DNA of 64,000 nt. Source: Sinotaia quadrata (lineage: Eukaryota; Mollusca; Gastropoda; Architaenioglossa; Viviparidae). Of this stretch, positions 10,755-62,576 are shown piece after piece. The position numbers and the translations under genes are program-made. The DNA is taken from NCBI GenBank assembly GCA_028829895.1, contig CM054180.1:107959635-108023634 (forward strand). The letters run 5' to 3'. Every line of letters starts with the position of its first letter. Within the stretch, counting starts at the first letter, position 1. The notes under the pieces were generated by a model. That model saw nothing but the letters and a program-made list of their open reading frames with translations, had not been told where the DNA came from and did not search any database.

Positions 10755-12206
10755 TTATGGCACTATAAAAATTAGTTGGGACAAGCAACTAGATGCTGCC
10801 AGGAAAAGGTTACTCTGATCCCATTTATTATATCGCTTGACGTCATTTGAACTCCATCTGTGCGCTGCAAGGCCTAGGTTTGAATCTATAGTTGAATGAT
10901 TTGCAGCACCTAAGGGAGTCTGGGTATCGTTAACTGGATCCGAGTTACAGAGTAGATTATCTTCTGAATATAGCTGTTCACTGGTAGGCAATTTTTTAAA
11001 TGTATACTTTAATAAAGCATTTTGGTGTTCTTGATCTAGTTTCTTTAATTCCAAAATACATCGATATCTAGCAGACTCAACGTTCGAACCACGTAACTCT
11101 GATCGACGGCTCCTGACATCTGTAAATTCTGAAGGATATGCCGTTTCTGGCGCTTCTTTGCCATGTTTGTAACCGGGCAGAAACACGACCACATCGCTTT
11201 TCAGTCCCTGAAAATCTGCAGCACTTGTGACGAATACTTTGTCCCAGCAAATCTTGGATCTATCTTGCATCTCAGCAACGTCCACGCTCACTTTGACAAA
11301 CTTCTCGATTGTTTGCATGAATGGACTCTTGCAGACATTTGCTACATATTCATCGCGCTGTTCATGACGTTCAGGCTCGCCCAAACCATTTTCAGTGCTT
11401 CCCACGCGTTCTGGAATGCTTACCAGTACCACAACCCTGCAAGAAATCTTGCAACCCTTTGCAGCAGAGTCTGCCATTGAAGTGATGTCTGGCGTAGTTA
11501 AATTCAGTTTGGATTTACCAAAGAGGAGTGTGACAAGTTCCTCGGCACACTTACGACAATGTGTCACCCTGACACTATGGTCGTGATCTTGATGTCTGAC
11601 ACTCAGGGCCGGTGGCCCGTTGGTTGGTATTTCGATGCAGGCGGTATCTGAGGCGTAGGATCTCTTTCGCTCGTCATCCGGGTCTACATGGTATAAAACG
11701 CGCTGAATGGACGGTGGACAGTGAAGGACATCAGTGAGATTTAACTTTTTAAAATGTTTTAATTTTAAGTTTAGTTCTGAAGAATCTGAAACCCAAACCA
11801 AAGATTCTTTAAAGTCTACGGACAATGAAGTTAGAATGTGAGAAAGATGCTGCGACGAGTGCACTTCGTCGAATACAAACATGAGATTTCTGGAATTGGT
11901 GATGGTTTGAGTCACTCTCTCGCGGACTTTTTTACTAAATTGTAGAGCTTCGGTCTGGTTGTGAAGGTGTACATGAAAGACCCTGCTGTCGTAATCTGAC
12001 ACACGTGTCTCTTTGATTGCCTTCAGGATCAAGTCGTCAATGGGCCTGCATGACTCACTGGAACTCAAACTGACCACGATGACCTGGTTATTTGCATCCT
12101 CCATTAAAAACATTCTGGCCTTCAGAACGAGCATCAACGTTTTGCCGGAACCAGGCGGTCCAGTAAGACTCAGGCGTCGCGATCCTTCATTCATCAATAT
12201 ATCACT
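10755..12206 (-). CDS. gene A exon 9: SF1 helicase-like domain
   Basis: This single exon of 483 codons follows a TTTCAG acceptor. Motifs in order (protein numbering): Walker A GPPGSGKT at about 421-428; Walker B FVFDEVH at about 516-521; a CPPSIQ motif IV-like segment ([18 protein letters not shown]) near 563-579; SVRHQDHD near 607 followed by HCRKCAEEL (C622, C625); and motif [16 protein letters not shown] near 736-750. A diverged linker of about 110 residues follows, then the terminal block [18 protein letters not shown] and B are the copies with DExH. Motif V has Lys where B and C have Glu (GLK versus GLE). The position expected to hold the motif VI arginine is Ser. ATP binding is plausible; helicase activity is uncertain. 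Confidence 0.88.
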   Translation of the reverse strand, partial: SDILMNEGSRRLSLTGPPGSGKTLMLVLKARMFLMEDANNQVIVVSLSSSESCRPIDDLILKAIKETRVSDYDSRVFHVHLHNQTEALQFSKKVRERVTQTITNSRNLMFVFDEVHSSQHLSHILTSLSVDFKESLVWVSDSSELNLKLKHFKKLNLTDVLHCPPSIQRVLYHVDPDDERKRSYASDTACIEIPTNGPPALSVRHQDHDHSVRVTHCRKCAEELVTLLFGKSKLNLTTPDITSMADSAAKGCKISCRVVVLVSIPERVGSTENGLGEPERHEQRDEYVANVCKSPFMQTIEKFVKVSVDVAEMQDRSKICWDKVFVTSAADFQGLKSDVVVFLPGYKHGKEAPETAYPSEFTDVRSRRSELRGSNVESARYRCILELKKLDQEHQNALLKYTFKKLPTSEQLYSEDNLLCNSDPVNDTQTPLGAANHSTIDSNLGLAAHRWSSNDVKRYNKWDQSNLFLAASSCLSQLIFIVP

Positions 12207-61495: not shown

Positions 61496-62576
61496 CTGTA
61501 ATAAAAATCAAGATATATATTTTAAGTGTCTTTTTTTGGTAAAAAATATAATATATTTAAAATAAGGAATTTTATATGTACTTTGAGGTGTGTTTGGACT
61601 GAATGCAATGTTGATGTCTGTAATTATGATTCCCATAAGTGAATGCAATGTTGACTGTATCCCATAATCTGTTGCATTGTGCACATCGAAATGAACCAGT
61701 TTCACACAAACTGTGTGTTATTAATTGAATAAAAATAAGACAACACAACATTTTGTAGTGTGAACTCTGCATGCATGGTTTCCTGTCTTCAAGCGAGAAA
61801 ATATTTATGGACAAGAAAATAAAGAGTGATAAATGATATCTAACTTTATAGTCTAAAATATGAATTACATAATCATTTTCTCTCCACTTCACTCTCTGTA
61901 TAAAGCCGAATGCAATAATGTTTTGCTGTCCGTATGATTTTAATCTGAAATTTGTTTGTCTTGTTAGGTACTTTAGCAGTTTAATAATCTTTGAAATTGG
62001 TTCATTCATCGTTCTTACTAATTTTTAATTCTTGATTTTTTTAAAAATATATTTGAATTTTCCCACCAACGTCACAAATTTTGGCTTTTTTATTTTTTAT
62101 TTGTCCTTCCTTTTATTATTTATTTTATTATAGTCGTACATTTCTTCTCCTCTTTCAGTTATTCTTTCATTCTGTAATTAATTTTCTTCTCCTTTGAATT
62201 GAAAATGTCATTAGACTAATATCAACGAACGTTATAGTTGCTAAAGTTGGGTTTCTTTCGGAAATTTTGTGTCGACTTGAGAAATGAAATTTACATTGTT
62301 GAACGAAAGTGTTGAAGGGAGCATACAAGGCCTGGAGATTTATGTTAAGCAAACAAAGACATCTGCAAAGAAAGCATGACATTAATCAAGTGGGTCTTGA
62401 CCGTTCACAGCTGGTTATCGACGTGTTATATACGTAAAATAAATACCATCTTGGCTGTGACGACAAGACGCTGATATCGGCTGGCCGTCCACAGTAAGCA
62501 GTCGCCAGAGTTCCGTATCCAGTTTCGATCATTTATGTCGTTCAGTTTCACTGGTGTGGAGAAGATTCCTATATAT
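60182..62576 (-). CDS. gene C: third paralogue, 3' part only
   Basis: Two exons are in the window: 62576-62447 (130 nt, phase-matched to gene A exon 8) and 61495-60182 (437 codons plus stop). The upstream exons with the nuclease-like core must lie to the right of the window; none was found at 62577-64000. The second exon has Walker A GPPKSGKT, intact in Lys and Thr. At the Walker B position FLIDGY replaces DExH, and motif V is RFVGLESDFVIFLP with Val for Gln. It also has FTECTSCAEAL and a terminal LYLAASCCVTLLILLVPH. Loss of both the Walker B Glu and the motif V Gln predicts little ATPase activity. The frames are fully open, so it is not an obvious pseudogene. Confidence 0.82.
62447..62576 (-). 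CDS. gene C penultimate exon
   Basis: Between TCACTTTAG and a GTATTT donor. It encodes RYIGIFSTPVKLNDI and LLWTASRYQRLVVTAKM, aligned with gene A exon 8 at identical length. Confidence 0.85.

Follow-up and report, generated by a model that had tools for sequence, protein, structure and literature searches.

Could an animal genome hold its own family of genes in which a nuclease-like core is fused to a helicase, and what might such genes do? Most known proteins that fuse a NERD-like core to a helicase belong to bacterial defence, and a preliminary description of one stretch of the Sinotaia quadrata genome had pointed to three genes of this type standing together. The stretch, here called the window, is 64,000 nucleotides long (C4:107959635-108023634) and belongs to a genome of 984 Mb in 26 contigs. 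By sequence comparison, the window shows three members of a nine-gene cluster of paralogues, which belong to a molluscan (gastropod-type) family. We propose, with a probability of about 55%, that this seven-exon nuclease-helicase family was ancestrally a motor-gated cutter and that its clustered copies diversified under conflict.

Six-frame open reading frames (ORFs) of the window were compared by blast, and exon models were built with AG/GT splice sites. Three long related exon ORFs were found, at 10755-12266 (-), 46946-48478 (+) and 60182-61507 (-), and these P-loop exons of genes A, B and C resemble each other far above chance (A-B, E 1.6e-74; A-C, E 7.7e-41; B-C, E 3.7e-39). Blast placed six smaller homologous exons ahead of the long exon of A and B, in the same order and on the same strand; the two genes are collinear across seven exons, with consistent intron phases (0, 2, 0, 0, 2, 0) and a single terminal stop. 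The model of A has 813 amino acids (aa) and that of B 844 aa, stop excluded; neither contains internal stops and both use AG/GT sites. Gene C has exons 6 and 7 within the window and exons 1-5 beyond it, at C4:108024051-108028739. Orientation is mixed (A -, B +, C -). The parts of the three genes, in window positions and with the basis of each call, are:

21202..21453, minus strand: gene A, exon 1 as counted in the homologous block; start-codon exon not found (blast, model)
19280..19449, minus strand: gene A, exon 2 (blast, model)
19012..19102, minus strand: gene A, exon 3, with nuclease motif HEAN..Q|VK, Asp replaced by Asn (model, residue table)
17361..17555, minus strand: gene A, exon 4, remainder of the NERD-like core (model)
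14240..14391, minus strand: gene A, exon 5 (model)
13197..13326, minus strand: gene A, exon 6, whose end coincides with the place of a helicase Q-motif-like stretch (model)
10755..12206, minus strand: gene A, exon 7, SF1 helicase-like domain and stop (model)
34892..35143, plus strand: gene B, exon 1 as counted in the homologous block; start-codon exon not found (blast, model)
35976..36130, plus strand: gene B, exon 2 (blast, model)
37089..37179, plus strand: gene B, exon 3, with nuclease motif HESD..FFQ (model, residue table)
39190..39396, plus strand: gene B, exon 4, starting VKG (completing Q-x-K), remainder of the NERD-like core (model)
40929..41080, plus strand: gene B, exon 5 (model)
43514..43682, plus strand: gene B, exon 6 (model)
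46970..48478, plus strand: gene B, exon 7, SF1 helicase-like domain and stop (model, structure comparison)
47015..47038, plus strand: gene B, Walker A stretch GPPGSGRT, Lys replaced by Arg (residue table)
47579..47626, plus strand: gene B, putative zinc site H-x2-H-x8-C-x2-C (four residues kept in 10 of 10 paralogues)
62447..62576, minus strand: gene C, exon 6 (blast, model)
60182..61495, minus strand: gene C, exon 7, SF1 helicase-like domain and stop (model)

A broken second copy of gene A exon 2, with a stop, lies at 19698-19848 (-), just upstream of the intact copy.

Exon searches over the tiled region C4:107900001-108143600 yielded nine seven-exon genes: G1 (-), G2 (-), A (-), B (+), C (-), G6 (+), G7 (-), G8 (-) and G9 (-). 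The preliminary description was right that A, B and C are related, collinear and clustered, and fell short in its count of three. A tenth member, G10, was located at C4:97.080-97.091 Mb; in it exons 2 and 3 form a single exon and exon 7 is divided. All nine cluster models are open with usable splice sites, which are canonical partly by construction because the script sought phase-compatible AG and GT sites up to 20 codons away from the boundary given by homology; most inner junctions coincide exactly with that boundary, and for several genes the position at which exon 1 begins is uncertain. The start-codon exon of A and B was not found by similarity among upstream flanks; those of the cluster genes and G10 mainly have repeats in common, in a comparison covering just 1.8 kb for G9 and 0.6 kb for G10. 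Aligned identity of A, B and C to other members is 27-47%. Over all 45 pairs, mean aligned-codon difference is 0.50, 0.39 and 0.65 at positions 1, 2 and 3, highest at third positions, as expected from coding sequence under purifying selection.

An exon-7 profile was searched against a database of 5.8 billion proteins, using a shorter length window and scoring the 7997 candidates that shared most words. It matched at least eight proteins (E 1.5e-60 to 8.9e-109), four of them in named species: P0001 and P0003 of Littorina saxatilis, P0004 of Biomphalaria glabrata (BgiMline_019703) and P0008 of Nucella lapillus. The gastropod relatives are annotated as uncharacterized or hypothetical. P0004 (883 aa) contains every block from exon 1 through the end of exon 7 and aligns with the B model over 870 columns (27%, E 2e-82) and with G10 over 906 columns (31%, E 4e-125); P0001 and P0003 start in exon 4, and P0008 consists of exons 1-2 and 4-7, without the GE-x-D stretch. 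Full-length B and a five-member full-length profile gave nothing at E ≤ 10 in the 5.8 billion proteins. In the tree, the nine-gene cluster forms one clade (87/90, not starred) separate from the gastropod database proteins; A and G1 (100/99) and G7 and G8 (100/100) are sister pairs, and G10 groups with P0004 (100/99).

The upstream exons are very probably joined to the P-loop exon in one protein, since nine loci share exon order and phases, since a stretch preceding the P-loop that forms one open exon in the relatives L039, L041 and L043 is re-formed by the exon 6+7 join, and since the snail database proteins, annotations that may themselves be predictions, are already joined. In L041 this stretch reads ..LTPEQTAVVACNDPYVYLSGPPGTGKS.. 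within one exon, and the exon 6|7 junction of G9 reads ..VITQEQ|EKLL..; the versions in A, B and C are degenerate. We take it to be the Q motif of superfamily 1 (SF1) helicases. The joining proposed in the preliminary description thus very probably holds, one annotated Biomphalaria polypeptide covering the architecture.

This architecture comprises a helical N-terminal region, a NERD-like core of the form (G/H)-(E/D)-x-D ... Q-x-K, a linker and an SF1-type helicase with an HxxH..CxxC motif. The exon 7 product has the two RecA-like domains of an SF1-type helicase, and its motifs V and VI are separated by a long variable loop with predicted disorder. In G7 (L002) a coding unit of 21 residues stands in seven in-frame tandem copies between these motifs. 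The earlier picture of a clustered, diverging animal family joining a NERD-like core to an SF1 helicase was right in outline, with nine genes and the low identities given above.

Is the N-terminal core a nuclease? The canonical NERD active-site order is (G)(E/D)-x-D ... (E/Q)-x-K. Gene B carries a NERD-like core as a motif (..HESDIMVIHPHKGVIFFQ|VKG..), and the order (E/D)-x-D ... (E/Q)-x-K is present in the family, except in gene A of the window and in G1, G7 and G8, where the Asp is lost. P0004 (GEAD..EVK) and L045 (GDFD..EIK), a relative whose whole nuclease region is one exon, show the canonical order; the ten paralogues carry Q-x-K (one Q-x-R) instead of E-x-K. In Pfam scans, A, B and C singly gave no convincing PD-(D/E)XK profile match (C gives UPF0102 at E 0.13). 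NERD (PF08378) was reported for four of the ten nuclease regions (G9, E 0.00024; G6, 0.00098; G2, 0.0016; G1, 0.0031) and for L045 (E 0.0043, 18.0 bits, no other family), all below the family cut-off; G9 also matches PDDEXK_9 (E 0.029), and P0004 matches VRR_NUC (E 0.026) and NERD (E 0.13, 13.2 bits). A PDB sequence search with the nuclease profile returned none at E ≤ 10, and one with L045 a single chance match. A second AlphaFold model, of P0004 with 18 alignment rows and misaligned exon fragments excluded (predicted local distance difference test, pLDDT, 59.2), has a predicted order of helices, three strands, helix and strand that would fit PD-(D/E)XK. Because the profile matches fall on the same core and the motif order is canonical in P0004 and L045, we are confident in calling the core NERD-like, without Pfam NERD membership. 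The preliminary description had named the lack of a PD-(D/E)XK match for B alone as grounds for giving up its nuclease claim, and the Pfam scans found no such match; its NERD-like core stands as a motif in B, with profile support coming from the four paralogues and L045 instead. A binding domain in place of a nuclease throughout the family, whether PD-(D/E)XK-shaped or unrelated, is quite unlikely: sub-threshold NERD matches, Q-x-K or Q-x-R in place of E-x-K and an Asp absent from four of the ten paralogues would fit it, but P0004 and L045 have the canonical order and Q-x-K is found in active members of the PD-(D/E)XK superfamily.

Catalytic residues have been lost in a scattered way. The nuclease Asp is kept in six of the ten paralogues (G2, B, C, G6, G9 and G10) and lost in A, G1, G7 and G8, at least two times, given that A+G1 and G7+G8 are sister pairs; as its Asp is Asn, A is probably not an active nuclease. 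The Lys of Q-x-K is kept in nine, the Walker A Lys in seven, the Walker B DE in five (A, B, G6, G7 and G10) and the motif VI Arg in three (G1, G7 and G10). Thus A lacks the motif VI Arg, B the Walker A Lys and the VI Arg, and C the Walker B Glu and the VI Arg; all tabulated catalytic residues occur together just in G10, the other nine having lost at least one. The window genes are probably in part pseudo-enzymes, and the loss of machinery in several copies suggests a fast-evolving family that may act in defence or sensing. The H-x2-H and C-x2-C residues, a putative zinc site, are kept in all ten paralogues; in an alignment of 18 sequences, 8 of them database proteins, three of these positions do not vary and the second His reaches at least 90%. 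The distant relatives L039 and L043 retain CxxC, with the two His spaced further apart. That all or some of the clustered genes are decaying pseudogenes is very unlikely: nine open models with usable splice sites, pairs most different at third codon positions and the unchanged HxxH..CxxC residues speak against it, set against the catalytic losses, the broken exon 2 duplicate inside gene A and the wider-family copies with stops described next.

Beyond the cluster, the G10 exon gave 75 matches at E ≤ 0.1 in the whole genome, among them, at E 0.0023, L043 (C4:138.79 Mb), which has the same motif order; P0004 matches another member of the L043 array (E 5.9e-5). The L043 P-loop exon in turn had at least 151 matches including itself (150 of 620 candidates scored), the others listed being 68-89% identical. 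These lie mostly in blocks (C4:121-141 Mb, C3:0.6-17 Mb and C8:5.6-7.5 Mb), and at least 14 of those listed contain stops. P0004 as query, with 51 of 1380 candidates scored, gave at least 52 genome matches, and 17 of these fall in the nuclease part. For seven of the 17, a P-loop exon follows on the same strand no more than 10 kb downstream, and for none does one lie upstream; with nuclease places shifted randomly within 200 kb the mean was 1.3, and 0 of 2000 trials reached seven, in a test using 81 P-loop rows, a subset of those listed. This excess over random indicates that at least part of the wider family is also nuclease-helicase. For the genome-wide paralogue count called for earlier, we can give nine clustered genes, G10 and the L043-type exon matches, the last from a subset of candidates.

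In the roughly 4.5 kb before the exon-5-like ORF of L043, no nuclease part was seen and a repeat-like ORF stands instead. This 643-aa ORF (L044:2-1930; C4:138781502-138783430) was rejected as part of the L043 gene: it is a dispersed repeat with at least 69 matches (69 of 933 candidates scored), 90-93% identical, on C1 to C8, and probably a transposon ORF. Its position, and the great number of related helicase exons on C3, C4 and C8, might suggest that a mobile element encoding a nuclease-helicase carries the copies or gave rise to them, and that they are selfish and not host genes. We regard this as highly improbable: the ORF is a separate repeat dispersed over C1 to C8 while the family lies mostly in blocks, and the window genes have conserved introns within a deeply diverged nine-gene clade.

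Other repeats mark the window itself. Minisatellites and GAAA/TATC microsatellites are abundant (107 tandem-repeat rows, some overlapping), and the tandem repeats produce artefact ORFs, e.g. 7433-8323 and 14951-15613. A short repeat is common to ~31.0-31.4 kb (+), ~59.1-59.5 kb (-) and the region upstream of G7.

We propose a motor-gated cutter, of the kind reported for Hachiman and described for Nhi (both compared below), because the nuclease core precedes a nucleic-acid motor. In the ancestral type (G10/Biomphalaria), the ATP-driven helicase would recognise or move on nucleic acid, and its action would then license the nuclease part to cut, by analogy with bacterial nuclease-helicase defences. 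The clustered copies would have diversified in conflict with viruses or mobile DNA; conflict, with some copies non-catalytic, is proposed because expansion goes together with scattered catalytic loss. Copies that have lost nuclease or ATPase residues and kept the fold and the zinc-like site may be binding-only sensors, decoys or partners of intact copies. A role in defence or sensing would fit this picture.

Several observations weigh against the proposal. Family expansion is compatible with non-defence roles too, and none of A, B and C has the complete set of catalytic residues. On the nuclease side, B, A, C, G7, G8 and G10 have no NERD match in the Pfam scan, the best NERD score (G9, 22.0 bits) does not reach the cut-off of 22.1, and searching the whole genome with the NERD family yielded nothing at E ≤ 0.001. 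The NERD matches are just slightly above noise, since unrelated families in the same ten-region scan reach E 0.007 (SpmSyn_N, G10) and 0.012 (DUF7431, A). Residues 141-280 of the P0004 model have low confidence (ten-residue mean pLDDT 39 to 67). For the helicase part, the exon-7 profile matched just AAA+ and other P-loop proteins among PDB sequences (best, AAA+, E 0.015) and no SF1 helicase, and Foldseek TM-scores are low (SLFN11, query-normalised, 0.35-0.37). PADLOC matches to Nhi, AbiO, GajB and NERD+UvrD are weak, lie mostly in P-loop stretches and are often outranked by mad8 or MkoA, and P0004, L045 and G7 exon 7 gave none to these models.

A duplicated genome-maintenance nuclease-helicase, DNA2-like and acting in repair or replication without a defence role, would account for the housekeeping-like G10, which groups with the Biomphalaria protein and keeps all tabulated catalytic residues. 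Tandem expansion and repeated catalytic loss are unusual for repair enzymes, and these features, together with the 27-47% identities and the numerous L043-type exon matches, make this reading unlikely. If the motor-gated cutter diversified under conflict is right, a bacterial-style nuclease-helicase device exists and has expanded in animals relying on innate immunity; repeated catalytic loss beside an invariant zinc-like site would be a natural test of sensor evolution from enzymes, and the G10/Biomphalaria type would be an intact-looking member suited to direct assay. A bolder version is tentative and on balance doubtful: gastropods might hold a large set of nuclease-helicases, diversifying by lineage and numbering well over a hundred copies in the present genome, that would guard against foreign nucleic acid, with complementary dead-site paralogues acting jointly (e.g. 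B, nuclease-intact and ATPase-altered, with A, nuclease-dead and Walker-intact), as an animal counterpart of bacterial nuclease-helicase defence.

Descent from bacterial NERD-helicases finds no support: protein, contig and plasmid searches, which did not extend to the phage collection, gave no prokaryotic or viral sequence relative. Viral and genome contig scans returned 35 and 88 pattern-matching stretches, none confirmed, and plasmid tblastn with P0004 returned one match (E 5) taken as chance. PADLOC matches to C3a187 NERD+UvrD, Nhi, AbiO and RTasNERD-Hel are weak (E 0.0025 to 0.041) and mostly cover P-loop stretches. Literature keyword searches on nuclease, helicase, Schlafen and mollusc themes found no title or abstract start that names this snail family; passages of PMC8195603 deal with TRADD-N expansions.

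Among known systems, group III Schlafens (SLFN11, SLFN14) differ in their nuclease motif. The Schlafen core (AlbA-like) domain is not among the Pfam families listed in the scans of the nuclease regions, the L043 exon, P0004 and the exon-7 set (25 of 26 families for the last), and the SLFN-g3_helicase profile was listed just for the L043 exon, below its cut-off (16.1 of 24 bits), being absent among the same 25 of 26 families for the ten exon-7 sequences. Gabija GajB, the second family in the Foldseek list (8sm3, 4.5e-6), shares the UvrD-like helicase fold. The Gabija nuclease is a separate protein, GajA, whereas the snail nuclease-like part is fused. Bacterial NERD-helicase, Nhi and AbiO proteins resemble the snail family in that a single chain holds a nuclease-like core followed by a helicase, and the snail genes differ in their introns, extra helical N-terminus, HxxH..CxxC motif and variable V-VI loop. 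Nhi is described in PMC12904381 as a single-gene nuclease-helicase that nicks and unwinds DNA. Hachiman HamAB serves as the model for the mechanism proposed here: according to PMC12278908, the sensor helicase HamB restrains the effector nuclease HamA and activates it on damaged DNA, and the system differs from the snail family in having two genes, an SF2 helicase and a DUF1837 nuclease.
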